Virus record (IMG/VR): IMGVR_UViG_3300038652_000029
Coordinates: 1-20,533 of that record
Length of the DNA: 20,533 bases
Reading direction: 5' to 3' (one strand)
From: a virus
Both the position numbers and the translations under genes were made by a program. Below, piece by piece: positions 2,491-20,533 of this stretch (the stretch's first letter is position 1; every line of letters begins with the position of its first letter). Below the pieces are notes generated by a model that was not told where the DNA came from, did not search any database, and was given only the letters and a program-made list of their open reading frames with translations.

Positions 2491-2922
2491 ATGAAAGAAC
2501 TAAGTCAACATCTTGAAGAGGCTATATCTTCATTCTCTGGCTTCCTGCTGTCTAGGGTCCAAATGCCCCAGATTGACGATATCGAGGATTTCAAAACCTT
2601 CTTGTACGAGAACGATATTCGGTTCGTGTCAATCAGGCTAGAACTCGACAACTTCTTATCGAAAAATATTTTCAAGCCTACGCAAACCGACTACGACGAA
2701 AATAAGGTAGACCGGATTGTAGCAGACCTTGAAAACAAGAATCTGGATGAAGTCAAACCCGTGATCTTCAGCGAAGACGGTTATGTTCTAGACGGTCACC
2801 ACAGATACTATGCGGCCAAGAAGCTTGCACTTACAAGGCCGCATAGTAAGTTTCCTATCTTAAAGGTTAATTTGCCTATCAACAAGCTCTTGGTCTCGGC
2901 TAACCAATACCAAGAGTCCTAG
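2491..2922 (+). CDS. ParB/sulfiredoxin-fold protein, possibly head-packaged
   Basis: The 143-residue product carries the ParB/Srx-type nuclease-like core: KPTQTDYDENKV (62-73), then KPVIFSEDGYVLDGHHRYYAAK (89-110) with the signature DGHHR at 101-105. The preceding SRVQMPQIDD segment is typical of phage and mobile-element members of this family. Members can be nucleases or NTP-binding switches; the activity here is unknown. The N-terminus MKELSQHLEE|A has the length, pattern and LEE|A site expected of a T4-type capsid targeting sequence (inference). A late core motif lies 35 nt upstream. There is no clear Shine-Dalgarno sequence before the ATG; the leader ends in two copies of CTATACCA followed by CTATG. 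Confidence 0.85.
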   Translation: MKELSQHLEEAISSFSGFLLSRVQMPQIDDIEDFKTFLYENDIRFVSIRLELDNFLSKNIFKPTQTDYDENKVDRIVADLENKNLDEVKPVIFSEDGYVLDGHHRYYAAKKLALTRPHSKFPILKVNLPINKLLVSANQYQES

Positions 2923-6368: not shown

Positions 6369-6989
6369 ATGGGAATTGTAAAGAAAGAAGAAATAAACGA
6401 TATTGATCAAGTAGAAAGAGACTTGATTAAACAAGGTAAGCTTAAAGAGAATACAGGTAACCAGTACGTCAATAACAAGGAATTGTATAACGAGCTTATC
6501 AAATTTCATGAGAAGAAACTAGAATGTCTGGAACAGGGTCTGCCTATTCCACCATTCAACGACAAGATCGGTAGTGCAATTATACAGATTGCGACCAGAC
6601 GTTGTAACTCGCGTAGTTACTATCGGTATACCAACAGTTGGAAGGAGGAAATGATCTCCAACGCAATTGCGACAGCCGCCATCAGGGGTCACAATTTTGA
6701 CCCTAACAAGTCTAGTAATCCGTTCGCATACTTTACCCAGATTTGTGACTCCGCTATCAAGGAACAGATCAAGAAGGAAAAGAAGCAACTCTACATCAAG
6801 TACAAGTCTATTGACAACGCACGCGGGTACATGGCGCAGGAAGACGAGAACAGCAACGAAGACAACGTTTACCATGACGAGGTTGACATTGCGTATGAAG
6901 ATAGGTTAAAGTTCATCAATGACTACGAAGATCGAAACTTCTCAAAGAAGAAGGAAGAGAGCGAAGAAGATAAGGGGATTTTTAGATGA
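6369..6989 (+). CDS. 55: Late-transcription sigma factor, gp55-like
   Basis: gp55 is the small sigma factor that directs host RNA polymerase to TATAAATA-type late promoters and, in T4, works with the sliding clamp gp45. The 206-residue product (T4: 185) contains the family's YVNNKELYNELIKFHEKK near the start and the region-2-like segment SWKEEMISNAIATAAIRGHN followed by FDPNKSSNPFAYFTQI and KEKKQLYIKYKSID. The C-terminal tail is charged (KKKEESEEDKGIFR). The ATG has AGAGGAAAG about 9 nt upstream. It is the first gene after the four-promoter array. Its stop overlaps the next start (ATGA). Its presence supports reading the TAAATA motifs of this window as late promoters. Confidence 0.95.
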   Translation: MGIVKKEEINDIDQVERDLIKQGKLKENTGNQYVNNKELYNELIKFHEKKLECLEQGLPIPPFNDKIGSAIIQIATRRCNSRSYYRYTNSWKEEMISNAIATAAIRGHNFDPNKSSNPFAYFTQICDSAIKEQIKKEKKQLYIKYKSIDNARGYMAQEDENSNEDNVYHDEVDIAYEDRLKFINDYEDRNFSKKKEESEEDKGIFR

Positions 6990-16387: not shown

Positions 16388-16510
16388 ATGCAAACAAGCC
16401 TTCCAACCAATTTCAGACATTACAGGCTGGAAGAGGGTCAGGTTCTATTCTCAGAATACAGGCAAGCCCATCAACTCAGAAAAATGATCAAACAAAAGGT
16501 GTACCGATAA
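16388..16510 (+). CDS. Small basic protein, 40 aa
   Basis: A 41-codon frame begins MQTSLPTNFRHYRLEE and ends in a basic segment (RKMIKQKVYR). The ATG has GAGGA about 8 nt upstream, and the TAA overlaps the next ATG (TAATG). This spacing, plus the late motif 30 nt upstream, supports it as the first gene of the late unit. The function is unknown; the basic tail could bind nucleic acid. Confidence 0.65.
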   Translation: MQTSLPTNFRHYRLEEGQVLFSEYRQAHQLRKMIKQKVYR

Positions 16511-16815
16511 TGTTTTCAATGCTTTCCCTACAAGAATACCAATCACTGGCAGAAGAGGTCGATCAGGCCGACGAACAGTTCGATGACGACGTTATCGACA
16601 AAGCGGAATCCTACGATATCGACACTGACGAGCAAACGGGTATGACGACCGTGACCGTCTATGATGTTAATGGTGCGGCCCTTCGTAGTGCCAAATTTTC
16701 CGATTATGACGTAGCCCTATCATACATGGAAGAGAATTTCGACCTAGAAGACCATGAGCCAGAGTTTTCTAATCCTGATGCGGTTGCGTCTGCTAGCAGA
16801 TACGGGCACGACTAA
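16510..16815 (+). CDS. Hypothetical acidic late protein, 101 aa
   Basis: I do not recognise this gene. The product is strongly acidic. A second ATG three codons in (16519) would give an N-terminus MLSLQEYQSLAE|E, which resembles a T4 capsid targeting sequence with an L-A-E cleavage site; this is inference. The middle (TTVTVYDVNGAALRSAKFSDY) looks like a beta hairpin followed by a helix. Start and stop both overlap the neighbouring genes by one base (TAATG), so the unit is translationally coupled. Confidence 0.72.
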   Translation: MFSMLSLQEYQSLAEEVDQADEQFDDDVIDKAESYDIDTDEQTGMTTVTVYDVNGAALRSAKFSDYDVALSYMEENFDLEDHEPEFSNPDAVASASRYGHD

Positions 16816-17264
16816 TGATTAAATTCTGGCAATTCGTTGACGAGTCTAAGCAGCAGGGTGGTAGCCGTAAGTGGGGCATGTCCAAAGAAGAGGAAATGGA
16901 AGTCGCTGACGGTGCGCCAATCAATGTCAAGCTTAAATACAAGGGCTGGCTTATCATCCCGACTATCCATGCTGCCGCACAGTCGGTTGAACGCCGTGCC
17001 GAGTATGAGCTTAGTGACTGGAAGCTCTTGCATGGCAAGGCTATCAACGCGCTCGAAGACAAGAAGAAAAAGAAGAACGGCGAATATCTGTTCTACTCGC
17101 GTTCGCAAAGACAGGGCTATGTCGTGAACGTAAATTATGGGCGTAAGCGCATGAGAATCATCACTGTCTTGCCTGTAGGTCGCAAGAACCCGAAGCCGGG
17201 CACGACTCAGATGATGATCGAGGGCAAGACGGTAAACATCGTGGAAGAAATCGAGGTCGATTGA
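16815..17264 (+). CDS. Hypothetical late protein, possibly head-packaged, 149 aa
   Basis: I do not recognise the family. The N-terminus MIKFWQFVDE|S has the pattern of the T4 capsid targeting sequence (Met, basic residue, aromatic residues, then an acidic cleavage site), although VDE is only a near match to (L/I)-x-E. The rest is basic: residues 70-90 include KAINALEDKKKKKNGEYLFY, followed by beta-rich segments (GYVVNVNYGRKRMRIITVLP). A basic soluble protein fits packaging with DNA. It overlaps the preceding gene by one base and the next by one base. Confidence 0.72.
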   Translation: MIKFWQFVDESKQQGGSRKWGMSKEEEMEVADGAPINVKLKYKGWLIIPTIHAAAQSVERRAEYELSDWKLLHGKAINALEDKKKKKNGEYLFYSRSQRQGYVVNVNYGRKRMRIITVLPVGRKNPKPGTTQMMIEGKTVNIVEEIEVD

Positions 17265-17497
17265 TGAAGTCTTTCCGCGAATTCATGATAGGCGAGGCGA
17301 GGATATTGGACCGTCAGGAAGCGATTCAGAAAGCAATCGACTTCGGCCCGTCCAACCTGTATGATCGAAAGGATATCGATATCAAGGTAGCGAAAGTTCC
17401 GCTCCCGCTCAAAGGGACCGTGTACGATATTGCGAACTACCTTCCGGTTGTTAAAGGTCTGGAAGTTGACTACGTTGGTCCGGTAGGAGAAGCATAA
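17264..17497 (+). CDS. Small late protein with strong capsid-targeting-like N-terminus, 77 aa
   Basis: The N-terminus MKSFREFMIGE|A closely matches the T4 internal-protein targeting sequence (for IPIII: MKTYQEFIAE|A), including an I-x-E|A cleavage site. If processed, the mature protein would be 66 residues beginning ARILDRQEAIQKAIDF. The remainder has a helix and a strand-rich tail (KVPLPLKGTVYDIANYLP). The ATG at 17264 overlaps the previous stop (TGATG); an in-frame TTG just before it is less likely. It ends at 17497 in a TAAGGAGG sequence that is also a strong ribosome site. Confidence 0.76.
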   Translation: MKSFREFMIGEARILDRQEAIQKAIDFGPSNLYDRKDIDIKVAKVPLPLKGTVYDIANYLPVVKGLEVDYVGPVGEA

Positions 17498-17506
17498 GGA
17501 GGATTT

Positions 17507-17533
17507 ATGATCCCGAGCAATCTCTTGACTTGA
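17507..17533 (+). other. Eight-codon micro-ORF with strong ribosome site
   Basis: AAGGAGG (17496-17502), a near-complete anti-16S match, is followed 4 nt later by ATG and the reading frame MIPSNLLT-stop. The TGA (17531-17533) is inside the -35 box of the next promoter. It could be the remnant of a gene replaced by the downstream cassette, or a leader peptide. Translation is not shown. Confidence 0.4.
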
Positions 17534-17558
17534 CAACCTTCCTAAAATTTGAGATAAT
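17530..17558 (+). promoter_or_regulatory. Sigma70-type promoter for the 17590 gene
   Basis: TTGACA (17530-17535), 17-nt spacer, GATAAT (17553-17558). The leader contains ATTGAG (17569-17574) and a GGAAGGAGA ribosome site before the ATG at 17590. The -35 box includes the stop codon of the micro-ORF. Confidence 0.82.
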
Positions 17559-17589
17559 GTCACCAGACATTGAGGAAGGAGATTTGATT

Positions 17590-17871
17590 ATGAACGGTTT
17601 CAACTACAGCTACTACGCGAAAGAGCGCCTTCTTGACAAGATGGATGCTTACATTGAAGAAAAGATGCCAAGGGGCGTTAACGGTCAGCTAAACGCTATC
17701 GCCGCTAGAGAAAAGCGCAAGATCATCGAAGCGCTCAACCGCGCACAAGCATACAAGCTTGAGAAGAAGATCATCGAGATCGAGTATTACGATCCGAGCA
17801 AAGACAAATGGGGCTTTGGCCCGCGAACAGTCAACGCAATCGACTACACCGCATTTTTGGAGGACATTTAA
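17590..17871 (+). CDS. Hypothetical early protein, 93 aa
   Basis: I do not recognise this gene. The product is mostly helical and charged (LLDKMDAYIEEKMPRG, then AREKRKIIEALNRAQAYKLEKKII), followed by a short strand-rich segment with WGFGPRTV. The ATG at 17590 is used because the promoter and AAGGAGA ribosome site lie just before it; the longer open frame overlaps the promoter. It is followed after 2 nt by the 17874 gene, forming a two-gene unit. Confidence 0.75.
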   Translation: MNGFNYSYYAKERLLDKMDAYIEEKMPRGVNGQLNAIAAREKRKIIEALNRAQAYKLEKKIIEIEYYDPSKDKWGFGPRTVNAIDYTAFLEDI

Positions 17872-17873
17872 TC

Positions 17874-18122
17874 ATGTACGCAGAACGAATTTCCCGCGTT
17901 CTTTACTACCACGACCTAGCAGATACGTCGTGCAAAGAGAACAAAGCATACGACGAATATGACCTGTTCGCACGCTATGTCTTGTCGGCGGTCGAAGAAG
18001 ATGGGGTTTCGCTGAAAGACGCGATTGAGTTTAATCTAGAATACTTCTTCGCACTCGAACCCGACGAGATTGACGAAGAGCGAGTCAACTCAGTTGTTGA
18101 CGAGATCGAAAAAACTGCTTGA
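17874..18122 (+). CDS. Hypothetical acidic early protein, 82 aa
   Basis: I do not recognise this gene. The product is very acidic and probably all helical: LFARYVLSAVEEDGVSLKDA and FALEPDEIDEERVNSVVDEI. Small acidic early phage proteins often bind host proteins or mimic nucleic acid, but there is no direct evidence here. GGAGG lies 10 nt before the ATG at 17874. Its TGA (18120-18122) is part of the TTGACA of the following promoter. Confidence 0.74.
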   Translation: MYAERISRVLYYHDLADTSCKENKAYDEYDLFARYVLSAVEEDGVSLKDAIEFNLEYFFALEPDEIDEERVNSVVDEIEKTA

Positions 18123-18147
18123 CACCTAGTCAAAAATTGCGTAAGCT
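18119..18147 (+). promoter_or_regulatory. Sigma70-like promoter for the 18178 gene
   Basis: TTGACA (18119-18124), 17-nt spacer, TAAGCT (18142-18147). The -35 is perfect and the -10 is weak, identical to that of the next promoter. ATTGAG occurs again in the leader (18156-18161), followed by AGAGGA before the ATG. Confidence 0.7.
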
Positions 18148-18177
18148 TGAACCACATTGAGAGAAGAGGATTAGATC

Positions 18178-18441
18178 ATGAAAATTAACCCGAACAAGAA
18201 ATTCCATAGCGACCCCGGCCAAGGCTGGCTAGCCGTAAAGGAAGCCGACCTTGACAAGCTGGGTATCAGTGACAATATCACGGAATTCAGCTTCAAGAAC
18301 GGCAAGACGGTCTATCTCGAAGAAGACTGTGATGCAGGCACCTTCATCAACGCATGTAAGGAGCACAACATCAAGGTAAACGTCATCGAGCTAGAACCCA
18401 AAACCTATTCCCCGGTTCGTTACTACGAAAGGTTTCGATAA
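18178..18441 (+). CDS. Conserved small protein, 87 aa
   Basis: The sequence GQGWLAVKEADLDKLGISDN, then FSFKNGKTVYLEEDCDAGTF, matches a pattern I recall in short conserved proteins of phages and proteobacteria (G-W-L-x-V, LGI, and TVYLEEDCDA). No function is known to me. The fold is probably a small alpha/beta domain with a basic, aromatic C-terminus (VRYYERFR). AGAGGA lies 7 nt before the ATG, and the gene has its own promoter. It ends 3 nt before the next TTGACA. Confidence 0.78.
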   Translation: MKINPNKKFHSDPGQGWLAVKEADLDKLGISDNITEFSFKNGKTVYLEEDCDAGTFINACKEHNIKVNVIELEPKTYSPVRYYERFR

Positions 18442-18444
18442 GGG

Positions 18445-18473
18445 TTGACAACCGACGAAAGAACGTGTAAGCT
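18445..18473 (+). promoter_or_regulatory. Sigma70-like promoter for the 18505 gene
   Basis: TTGACA (18445-18450), 17-nt spacer, TAAGCT (18468-18473), the same boxes and spacing as the promoter at 18119. The leader has ATTGAG (18484-18489) and AAAGGAGA before the ATG. Confidence 0.7.
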
Positions 18474-18504
18474 GTAACTGAAGATTGAGAAAAGGAGAAT
18501 GATT

Positions 18505-18639
18505 ATGAAACTGTACTGCAACACTCGTAACGCCGCTCGCGCTGTCGCAAAGGGCAACGAAAGCCGAAAGGTTGTTGACGCCAAGACAAACCCGAGTCCG
18601 AACGGTAGCCGCTGGGCGGTAGAGCTTCGGGCTTCATAA
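18505..18639 (+). CDS. Small basic protein, 44 aa
   Basis: A 45-codon frame begins MKLYCNTRNAARAVAKGNES and ends GSRWAVELRAS. AAAGGAGA lies 7 nt before the ATG, a dedicated promoter lies upstream and an intrinsic terminator lies downstream, so it forms a complete single-gene unit. The product is basic, with one Cys and an Arg/Lys-rich N-terminal helix. I do not know its function; small phage proteins with this N-R-x-A-A-R-A pattern seem familiar but cannot be named. Confidence 0.72.
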   Translation: MKLYCNTRNAARAVAKGNESRKVVDAKTNPSPNGSRWAVELRAS

Positions 18640-18659
18640 CCCAGAAGCCAATCCAGACG

Positions 18660-18694
18660 AAAGGCCAAGGATTTCGCCTTGGCCTTTCTTTTTT
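18660..18694 (+). terminator. Intrinsic terminator after the 18505 gene
   Basis: An 11-bp stem AAAGGCCAAGG / CCTTGGCCTTT (18660-18670 with 18677-18687) has an ATTTCG loop and is followed by C-T6. It separates the early cassette run from the following late gene, whose promoter motif begins at the next base. Confidence 0.93.
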
Positions 18695-18702
18695 GGTAAA
18701 TA
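18695..18702 (+). promoter_or_regulatory. Late-type promoter core GGTAAATA
   Basis: GGTAAATA lies directly after the T-run of the terminator and 36 nt before the ATG at 18739. The following GATGCATA resembles the bases after the late motif at 2448. AAGAGGA (18721-18727) is the ribosome site. Confidence 0.62.
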
Positions 18703-18738
18703 GATGCATAGGTTTAATTCAAGAGGACACACTAACCA

Positions 18739-19830
18739 ATGCTATCTTTCAAACGATTTACTGAACTAGAAAGCCGTCAGGTTCAAGAGGGTGTGGCAAA
18801 CCCCATGATGGTTAATGACAAAGAACTACGCTACCTAGACAGCCTGATCGACCGTGGCAGACACAAGGCGGGCGAGTACGAGTCCAAGGCCAAGGCCATG
18901 ATTCGCGACATGTATGAGCGTTACGCTAAGAAGTTTGAGAAAATTAAGAAGAAGCTTGGTCGCATCATCAGCAAAGAGGTTCGCAAGCTAAACAAGTCGG
19001 AAAAGGTCAAGGTGTTTACCGATATCAAAGAGCTTGATTCTATCGAAGACAAGGCAATGGATCGCAACAGAGGCATCATCCAAATGAACGATATCGTTCG
19101 TGGTGCTGTGCTGTTCACTACCAAAGTGGAAGCCGACGAATTCGTTAGCAAGTTCACCCGCAGAAACAGAAGCATGATCGTTGCCTATGAAGAGAAGAAG
19201 CGCGGTGGCGATACGGAATACGGTTACTACGGGTCGCACCACCTTGACCTTAGTATCGAAGGCATGGTTGTTGAGCTACAGGTAATGACTCGCAAAATGT
19301 GGAGTTACAAAGAAGCGGCACACGACATTTACAACAAGTACCGTTCTAAGTCTGGCGGACCAGACAAGTTTGATAAGCATATGTCTAAGCGCATGTTCTC
19401 TATGGCTAACGAGTCTGTCGGTATTGACCCTGAGTTCACGCTAGAAGAGATTGTGGAAATGGGCGACACGTGGGAAGAGGTCGATATTGATGCTGTTCTT
19501 CGCGAGGAAGAGATTGAAGAGAAAGTCGGTATGACAGACACGTTTTACCCGAGCGAAGTCATGTCCGCTATTCAGGCATGGGGATCGATCACCGGGCGCG
19601 GAAAGCCAAGAGAAATTTCGTCCACGAGAAAGATTTCTAACACTGACGTAAGTGCTACGGCCATTGGTATCGGAAACGCTTCTATCACATACAAGGTCGG
19701 GTCAAAGGGTATTGCGTACACAGTCACGACCAAAGACGGTAAAGAATATGATAGTGAGTACGTACCAAACAAGGCCAGAGGACAGGATAAGGCCAAAGCA
19801 CTAGGAAAAGTGCTTAGAAAGGTTAGCTGA
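18739..19830 (+). CDS. RelA/SpoT-domain protein, late, possibly head-packaged
   Basis: The 363-residue product has three parts. Residues 1-17 (MLSFKRFTELESRQVQE) resemble a capsid targeting sequence. Residues 30-90 are basic helices. Residues 88-205 match the RelA/SpoT nucleotidyltransferase pattern: K97...SIEDK (101-105) for the R-x-K...SI..K loop, NDIVRGAVLF with the metal Asp at D118, YYGSHH (163-168) for G-Y-x-S-x-H, VVELQVMT (177-184) with E179 and Q181, and HDIY (195-198). The Arg of R-x-K appears to be Asp95, so classical ppGpp synthesis is uncertain. Residues 265-363 form a separate beta-rich tail. Family members make (p)ppGpp or (pp)pApp, or pyrophosphorylate tRNA (toxSAS). It has its own late motif and no adjacent antitoxin-like gene on the same transcript. 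Confidence 0.75.
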   Translation: MLSFKRFTELESRQVQEGVANPMMVNDKELRYLDSLIDRGRHKAGEYESKAKAMIRDMYERYAKKFEKIKKKLGRIISKEVRKLNKSEKVKVFTDIKELDSIEDKAMDRNRGIIQMNDIVRGAVLFTTKVEADEFVSKFTRRNRSMIVAYEEKKRGGDTEYGYYGSHHLDLSIEGMVVELQVMTRKMWSYKEAAHDIYNKYRSKSGGPDKFDKHMSKRMFSMANESVGIDPEFTLEEIVEMGDTWEEVDIDAVLREEEIEEKVGMTDTFYPSEVMSAIQAWGSITGRGKPREISSTRKISNTDVSATAIGIGNASITYKVGSKGIAYTVTTKDGKEYDSEYVPNKARGQDKAKALGKVLRKVS

Positions 19831-19831
19831 T

Positions 19832-19859
19832 TTGACATTTTCCTCCTTTCATGTATACT
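19832..19859 (+). promoter_or_regulatory. Sigma70-type promoter for the 19883 gene
   Basis: TTGACA (19832-19837), 16-nt spacer, TATACT (19854-19859). It starts one base after the stop of the RelA/SpoT-domain gene. AAAGGAGA precedes the ATG at 19883, giving a very short leader of about 17 nt. Confidence 0.8.
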
Positions 19860-19882
19860 AATGATGTGAAAGGAGATTTTAT

Positions 19883-20248
19883 ATGAGAAAGACCTTTGTA
19901 TGTGACAAAATTCATTATGTGGCCGAGTACGTCAATAACCATTTCAACTTCTGGATTGACAATGTTAAAACGGAAGTGAAGCTTGTTAAAGACGATCCAT
20001 TTGGTGACGACCCTCCTAAGCGAATCGTGACCACGCTTGGCAACACCGATTGCGTGTTCCGGGTCAAGAAAGAGATCGAAGACTTCATGGCCCACGTGCT
20101 GGCGAAAGAGAACCCATATTACTTCACATTCGTCGCCAGTGACTTGAAACGAGTTCGAATTTACGTTAAACTAGCAGAGAAGATTGGCCGGAAGTACGGT
20201 TACTTTGTCCATGTCGACGGACTGTTCTTCCACTTTTACAAAGTTTGA
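19883..20248 (+). CDS. Hypothetical early protein, 121 aa
   Basis: I do not recognise this gene. The product is rich in aromatic residues and Val/Lys, with DKIHYVAEYVNNHFNFWIDN near the start and alternating strands and helices. It ends in KYGYFVHVDGLFFHFYKV, which looks like a closing beta hairpin. A small alpha/beta fold is likely. AAGGAGA lies about 7 nt before the ATG. It is expressed from its own promoter, and the 20261 gene follows 12 nt downstream with its own GGAGG. Confidence 0.75.
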   Translation: MRKTFVCDKIHYVAEYVNNHFNFWIDNVKTEVKLVKDDPFGDDPPKRIVTTLGNTDCVFRVKKEIEDFMAHVLAKENPYYFTFVASDLKRVRIYVKLAEKIGRKYGYFVHVDGLFFHFYKV

Positions 20249-20260
20249 CGGAGGTTTATT

Positions 20261-20512
20261 ATGGAAATTGGTACGAAGGTATTTGACGTTCGCATCCGGT
20301 TCGTTTCCGGCGATTTGGCTGGTATCACCCAAGACACGGAAATCACTTTTCCTGAAGGTATGGAATGGCGAGCCGACGAGTGGGCGGAAACGATCAATGA
20401 CAAGGCCGCAGACTACGAATCGGAATATATCGTAGTAAACGTTCGTGATCGAGAAACACACAAATTCGTTTACATAAATCAAGAAGTAAATACGTTCACA
20501 TACACAAATTAA
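20261..20512 (+). CDS. Hypothetical protein, 83 aa
   Basis: I do not recognise this gene. It is an acidic protein with a beta-rich start (FDVRIRFVSGDLAGITQDTE) and a central WRADEWAETIND helix. GGAGG lies 8 nt before the ATG. It is probably co-transcribed with the 19883 gene. Its last codons contain a late-type motif (20485-20492) for the gene that starts at 20522. Confidence 0.75.
   Translation: MEIGTKVFDVRIRFVSGDLAGITQDTEITFPEGMEWRADEWAETINDKAADYESEYIVVNVRDRETHKFVYINQEVNTFTYTN
20485..20492 (+). promoter_or_regulatory. Late-type promoter core AGTAAATA
   Basis: AGTAAATA lies inside the 3' end of the 83-aa gene and 29 nt before the ATG at 20522. The distance matches the gene 23 arrangement. 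Confidence 0.55.
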
Positions 20513-20521
20513 GGTTAAGAC

Positions 20522-20533
20522 ATGAAAACATTT
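20522..20533 (+). CDS. Start of a gene cut by the window end (MKTF...)
   Basis: Only four codons, MKTF, are visible. AAGG lies about 8 nt upstream and a late motif lies 29 nt upstream. The MKTF start is what a T4-type capsid targeting sequence looks like, but nothing more can be read. Confidence 0.45.

Follow-up and report, generated by a model that had tools for sequence, protein, structure and literature searches.

So far, alarmone-type enzymes have been known to serve as stress factors of the host, as toxins against phages (CapRel), and as MuF toxins of temperate phages. In FaRel2, the adenine of the donor lies between R64 and R95, and E145 and Q147 touch the base; the triphosphate is held by K66, S70, K74, and R77, and the metal by D90 (PMC11782079). 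The syn2 motif reads RYT in the Apk2 (p)ppApp synthetases and AVR in RSH enzymes (PMC12226406). In phage T4, internal proteins are directed into heads by a capsid-targeting peptide (CTS) (PMC3012670). Our literature search found no description of a head-packaged RelA/SpoT protein in T4-type phages. For the locus analysed here, we give an even chance to the reading in which a late, packaged, and injected alarmone-type enzyme, most likely a producer of (p)ppApp, is restrained by an early, non-packaged partner.

The 20.5-kb window, which is the whole stretch of DNA analysed (20,533 nucleotides), derives from a T4-type phage. Its genes include those for the head scaffold gp22, the major capsid protein gp23, the tail tube, UvsY, and the late sigma factor gp55, as well as gp46/47-type nuclease subunits, a sliding clamp, RegA, and Dda. 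The late sigma factor gene and the enzyme gene, with two parts of the latter, were placed as follows.

6369-6989, plus strand: gp55-type late sigma factor gene (phrog_234, E = 1.2e-41)
18739-19830, plus strand: RelA/SpoT-fold enzyme gene, 363 aa (PF04607, E = 1.3e-4; phrog_37685, E = 4e-35; AlphaFold2 model compared with RelQ and CapRel)
18904-19437, plus strand: pyrophosphokinase (SYNTH) core, residues 56-233 (VIA alignment range on 5dec_B)
19627-19827, plus strand: extra C-terminal beta-rich segment, residues 297-363 (AlphaFold2 secondary structure; window member only)

The preliminary description had proposed a RelA/SpoT-like domain and had named profile and structure comparison as the tests on which it would stand or fall; the two agreed in returning RelA/SpoT matches. 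Residues 96-201 of the window protein matched Pfam PF04607 (RelA_SpoT) at 22.7 bits (E = 1.3e-4), under the 27-bit cut-off. The same family was matched by 16 of the 19 aligned members (best E = 7.5e-11), and a profile of the 19 members hit a solved GTP pyrophosphokinase (E = 8e-5) and three further RelA-type chains (E < 0.001). The AlphaFold2 model had an overall pLDDT of 79, with the core mostly above 90, and its core superposed on B. subtilis RelQ (5dec_B) with Z = 15.2 and an rmsd of 3.5 Å over 172 residues. CapRel scored Z = 14.7 in VIA, RelQ and CapRel being tied by Z, and was the top Foldseek match (7ztb, E = 6.9e-6). Many SAS and RSH structures exceeded Z = 10, and unrelated entries reached at most 7.2. 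We regard membership of the enzyme in the RelA/SpoT fold as settled. Pfam gave no match to a MuF domain in the window protein at E ≤ 1. The extra beta-rich C-terminal part, also noticed previously, was modelled by AlphaFold2 as beta strands plus a helix (approximately residues 297-363; pLDDT about 50 at the start and 75-83 thereafter). A tblastn search with this extension gave no significant relative, and its VIA matches to profilin (Z = 7.2) were distrusted and set aside.

Approximately 20 relatives of the enzyme were found in T4-type phages, with an identity of about 25-45% among family members. Isolates carrying them are the Sinorhizobium phages phiM12, phiM19, phiN3, and phiM7, the Desulfovibrio phage SRB7757, and the Variovorax phage V45v66, and relatives are carried by about 16 distinct viral contigs (12 and 18 loci in the alignment searches, partly shared). 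A single-sequence search of viral contigs found none, and none was found in one genome per bacterial or archaeal species using two short patterns, an absence that is no proof. In phiM7 (L004:2747-3498), the annotation gives two short, overlapping ORFs (gp278 and gp279) in place of a single RelA-like gene, a split relative to phiM12 and phiN3.

The core residues picked out in the preliminary description (D95, K97, S101-I102, D118, Y164-x-S166-x-H168, E179-x-Q181-x-x-T184, and H195-x-x-Y198) were all found at those positions. Invariant across the 19 members are K97, K105, D118, K153, Y163, G165, H168, E179, Q181, K191, Y198, and R202. Residues of the window protein were equated with those of FaRel2 by our own mapping from the alignment. 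By this mapping, the phosphate and metal residues (K97, S101, K105, R109, and D118) and the base-contacting E179 and Q181 are kept, and both adenine-stacking arginines are absent, D95 and A123 standing in place of R64 and R95. Asp95 had been read as a sign of a changed nucleotide donor or acceptor. Position 95 varies in the family, however (D, G, Q, N, R, or K, with Arg in only two of the 16 tabulated members), so that this residue says little alone and is ruled out as the key change. Position 123 (D118+5) is A, S, T, or M and never Arg among the 16 tabulated members, and an Arg at D+3 (Arg121) has been gained in most members, the window reading R121-G122-A123 and L014 and L027 reading RAT. 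Applying the published motif by our own mapping, we found the window syn2 to be Apk2-like (Arg at D+3, no Arg at D+5); its syn3 is SxH (S166-H167-H168), as in RSH enzymes, and the GxN of Apk2 is absent.

The systematic change is the loss of the second adenine-stacking Arg (Ala123) together with the gain of an Arg at D+3, which resembles the Apk2 signature. In our analysis, (p)ppApp is the first choice of candidate product, ahead of (p)ppGpp and tRNA-PP. With both adenine-stacking arginines missing, the donor could be another nucleotide or the activity could be low; the syn3, SxH as in RSH enzymes and not the GxN of Apk2, makes (p)ppGpp a possible product.

Signals of late expression and head targeting were located at and before the start of the enzyme gene.

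18659-18688, plus strand: terminator-like hairpin closing the unit upstream of the enzyme gene
18697-18702, plus strand: TAAATA, the late-promoter motif belonging to the enzyme gene, 42 nt ahead of the ATG
18739-18789, plus strand: capsid-targeting-like peptide, residues 1-17, MLSFKRFTELESRQVQE/G (here and below, the slash marks the cleavage point), with a putative prohead-protease site after E17

The gene's own late motif and the MLSFKRF start resembling a head-targeting peptide, both pointed out before, are present and recur among the relatives. TAAATA has 7 copies in the window, about the chance number (8.6 expected); most copies lie just 5' of genes, including those of gp23 (TATAAATA, 518) and the enzyme (18697). 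Of the 19 enzyme genes, 14 have the late motif within 90 nt upstream; among 399 other genes from these loci, 52 do (p = 1e-8). CTS-like starts were seen in 16 of the 19 enzymes and in 35 of the 399 (p = 2e-13). Both p-values are optimistic, because the loci are related and the genes were called mechanically. The promoter and CTS tests are not circular, because the loci were picked by the protein sequence of the enzyme and not by promoters. The loose CTS pattern fits 16 and the strict one 14 of the 19 members; the window enzyme fits only the loose pattern (V at -3), and L011 has neither a late motif nor a CTS-like start by the patterns used.

In the window enzyme, the MLSFKRF start is combined with the cleavage-type site VQE/G at residues 15-18. 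In six members, among them the closest relatives of the window enzyme, the position of a [LVI]xE/ site ahead of NP[AM][MF] hardly varies, the aligned sites being VQE/GVANPMM, LQE/GVVNPAM, LDE/GTTNPAF, LDE/GSLNPAM, IDE/MANPAM, and LNE/NTLVNPAF. For comparison, T4 internal proteins start with MKTYQEFIAE/A and, for ipI, MKTFKEFTSTTTPVSTITE/A, with cleavage marks placed according to T4 background. With good support from these recurrent starts and motifs, the enzyme appears to be packaged in a T4-type head and injected with the DNA, and we infer cleavage by the prohead protease at VQE17/G18.

Two other genes of the window belong to families that are found fused to the enzyme elsewhere.

2491-2922, plus strand: ParB/sulfiredoxin-like protein with the CTS-like start MKELSQHLEE/A and its own late motif at 2450-2455
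16815-17264, plus strand: phrog_17629 protein with the start MIKFWQFVDES

At L013 and L015, a ParB-like domain precedes the RelA-like domain in a fusion protein; this ParB-like family forms a separate gene in the window and is adjacent or close in L019 and L026. In the Variovorax phage V45v66, the phrog_17629 domain, likewise a separate gene in the window, is fused C-terminally to the RelA-like domain. From the sequences, these fusions look like domain shuffling among apparent head cargo. Homologues of the 2491-2922 protein were found in 382 phage records, one of them annotated 'structural protein'. Genes encoding CTS-like starts (MLSLQEYQSLAEE, MIKFWQFVDES, MKSFREFMIGEA, and MLSFKRF..., with MKTF at 20522 behind GTAAATA) are grouped at window positions 16510-20533, likely forming a head-cargo gene cluster. 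A small ORF at 17530-17871 showed a weak match to the phage ADP-ribosyltransferase family phrog_15144 (E = 0.0034), and a consensus-like promoter (17530-17558) overlaps its listed start. DnaJ-like proteins with CTS-like starts were observed near the RelA-like gene in two unrelated phages (L002:7133-8206 and L003:4868-5896, the latter on the minus strand).

The enzyme gene is accompanied by a small neighbour, hereafter the partner, with a promoter of its own.

19832-19859, plus strand: sigma70-type (early) promoter of the partner, TTGACA-16-TATACT, 11 of 12 consensus matches
19883-20248, plus strand: partner gene, 121 aa, phrog_24699, DUF6934-like; candidate immunity/shut-off protein

The partner family was present at 18 of the 21 RelA-like loci, adjoining the enzyme gene at 17 and lying about 1 kb off in the Variovorax phage; it was absent at L014 and L027, and L025 is cut by the contig end. 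The partner gene can follow the enzyme gene in tandem, converge on it with overlapping ends, or precede it (as in L026), and it occurs on either strand. An exact TTGACA was found within 70 nt upstream of 13 of 17 partner genes, compared with 35 of 382 other genes (p = 4e-10, optimistic for the same reasons) and none of the 19 enzyme genes. A late motif preceded only one of the 17 partner genes, and the CTS pattern was seen in one of 16 partners. Enzyme and partner distances correlate (Mantel r = 0.77). Partner-first searches returned only contigs already carrying the enzyme and thus give no independent test of specificity.

The AlphaFold2 model of the partner had a pLDDT of 86.5, and comparison of its fold with the PDB gave no clear match (best Z = 7.2, within the background range). 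Pfam DUF6934 was matched by some members (best E = 7.8e-8). A resemblance to the N-terminal domain of Alt, seen by eye and accompanied by a weak DUF6934 match (0.052), was rejected at an hhalign probability of about 0.5% or less. In Vibrio phages, the partner has homologues in the KVP40.0058 family (hhalign probability 97.6, E = 3e-12). The genes of this family are convergent with alt, mostly have a late motif, usually encode a CTS-like start, and have no RelA-like gene nearby; such homologues were observed at L037:3001-5577 (KVP40), L034:3926-6468 (VH7D), L039, and L040. The KVP40.0058-family protein may itself be head cargo. The partner family would thus be not only an immunity protein for the RelA-like enzyme, and these other uses of its domain lower our confidence in the immunity reading. 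The neighbouring early gene probably makes a protein that restrains the enzyme, as its candidate function; an early, non-exported partner next to a late, exported enzyme would follow the logic of immunity plus effector.

Genes for HD proteins resembling alarmone hydrolases were also found in relatives. A gene that overlaps the partner at L013 has the (p)ppApp hydrolase of solved structure 7smg as its match (E = 4.8e-27); at L018, a SpoT/MESH1-type HD protein (HD_4, E = 5e-19) with its own CTS-like start and late motif directly follows the partner. HD hydrolase genes lie two genes further on in L008 and a few kb away in L019. Among the 18 records with the enzyme, 10 contain HD_4, including 8 of the 9 longer than 140 kb, compared with 2 of 12 T4-type records without the enzyme; in nine of these 12, the absence of the enzyme was checked. 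Counted by lineage, the excess is only suggestive, and HD genes also occur in the RelA-less phages Aeh1 and ACP17. Most of the phage HD proteins are nearer to 7smg than to MESH1. HD hydrolases with CTS-like starts were observed at L018:2592-3197 and L051:1408-1992 (MNMKNFKDFVAE/K and MRTFKQIVKE/M), and these two are possibly injected alarmone hydrolases.

The proposed mechanism starts from the computed fold, the conservation of catalytic residues, the asymmetry of late and early promoters, the CTS-like N-terminus, and the linkage to the partner. The enzyme, a RelA/SpoT-fold (SAS/toxSAS) protein and putatively a nucleotide 3'-pyrophosphokinase, would be transcribed late under a gp55-type promoter. 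Its capsid-targeting peptide would carry it into the prohead, where the prohead protease would trim it at the proposed site, and it would enter the host along with the DNA. Once inside the new host, the enzyme would move pyrophosphate from a donor nucleotide, most likely giving (p)ppApp and drawing down ATP, and host metabolism would be stalled at entry. The partner, early and without a head-targeting peptide, would turn off the injected enzyme once phage transcription begins and would shield the cell during the synthesis of new enzyme for packaging. In some relatives, an HD alarmone hydrolase would add to this restraint.

The preliminary description had likened the protein to T4 Alt, and the head-targeting-like start and the late motif bear out that part; the features missed at that stage, namely the early-promoted partner gene, the fusions, and the genes for hydrolases, point to an arrangement that is toxin-immunity-like and not only Alt-like. 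Tentatively, we extend this to virulent T4-type phages. A capsid-injected RelA-fold enzyme would deliver a timed strike from entry, the phage's own early immunity protein would stop the enzyme, hydrolases would clear its product in some phages, and the enzyme would be swapped among cargo through ParB-like and phrog_17629 fusions.

The alternative that survives best is a packaged and injected tRNA pyrophosphokinase like CapRel or FaRel2, which would briefly block host translation and have the partner as its antitoxin. The best Foldseek match (CapRel 7ztb), a VIA alignment to CapRel that includes the N-terminal helices (25-246), and a helical region ahead of the core, as in FaRel2, are in line with it. 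We nevertheless consider it unlikely: a translation stop at entry would presumably harm the phage, the linked hydrolases resemble (p)ppApp hydrolases (though tRNA-PP is also a possible substrate), and RelQ equals CapRel by Z. Next comes a packaged (p)ppGpp maker, which would set the host's stringent state at entry, blocking rRNA synthesis and replication and freeing resources. Its SxH syn3 (S166-x-H168) matches guanosine-recognising RSH enzymes, and a ppGpp synthetase, RelQ, is the best structural match, whereas the syn2 has no RSH Arg at D+5 and an Arg at D+3 as in Apk2, and most of the hydrolases are closer to the (p)ppApp hydrolase than to MESH1; this reading is also doubtful.

The lack of both adenine-stacking arginines (D95 and A123) in the window protein would also suit a late, packaged RelA fold that has little or no catalytic activity and serves to bind nucleotides or RNA or as a decoy, for instance in anti-defence by binding CapRel-type antitoxins or alarmone receptors. 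The phosphate and metal residues are (nearly) invariant at about 25-45% identity, however, which is hard to explain without catalysis and makes such a role improbable. The least probable reading, an ordinary, unpackaged late auxiliary gene with a CTS-like start by coincidence and an unrelated early gene beside it, would account for members without one or both signals (L011 having neither), but runs against the frequencies of CTS-like starts (16/19 versus 35/399) and late motifs (14/19 versus 52/399) and the linkage of the partner at 18 of 21 loci in either orientation.

If the preferred reading, an injected enzyme held in check by an early partner, is true, lytic phages would have turned the RelA fold to offence at the first moment of infection, and some of the extensive, uncharacterised cargo of T4-type heads would gain a concrete function. 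A direct test system is offered by phiM12 and phiN3 with Sinorhizobium meliloti. The 'RelA/SpoT family protein' of these phages (YP_009143198 and YP_009212523) is a direct homologue at 34-36% identity, with a late motif and an adjoining partner gene; it had already been annotated by domain and is without the C-terminal extension of the window protein, and our literature search on these proteins found no packaging, partner, or delivery model.

Among described systems, T4 Alt and IPI-III are alike in being encoded by late genes and in having an N-terminal capsid-targeting peptide with a prohead-protease-type site and proposed injection, whereas Alt has an ADP-ribosyltransferase fold and the enzyme here has a RelA/SpoT fold and a linked early partner gene. 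The toxSAS systems (CapRel, FaRel2/ATfaRel2, and FaRel) share the fold, the triphosphate and metal residues, the pairing of toxin and partner, and sometimes an alarmone hydrolase; they stay in the cell, whereas the enzyme here is seemingly exported in virions and has no adenine-stacking Arg pair. The Apk2-IapK-Aph1 system of temperate phages (MuF-type) likewise places a RelA/SpoT-fold domain on a head-associated phage protein (PMC12226406), beside a small neighbour gene and, as in some loci here, a (p)ppApp-hydrolase-type gene, and its syn2 has an Arg where RSH enzymes have Ala and none at the RSH position. Apk2 is delivered by a MuF domain; here, the phages are T4-type, the proposed delivery is of the CTS type, and the syn3 is SxH. 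The partner, a candidate counterpart of IapK, is early-promoted on its own. Loci with a hydrolase have the same three-part make-up as Apk2-IapK-Aph1 and the FaRel operon (hydrolase plus Tis1-like antitoxin). Overall, the nearest known kind is that of the Apk2/toxSAS effectors with immunity, combined here with T4-type cargo delivery.
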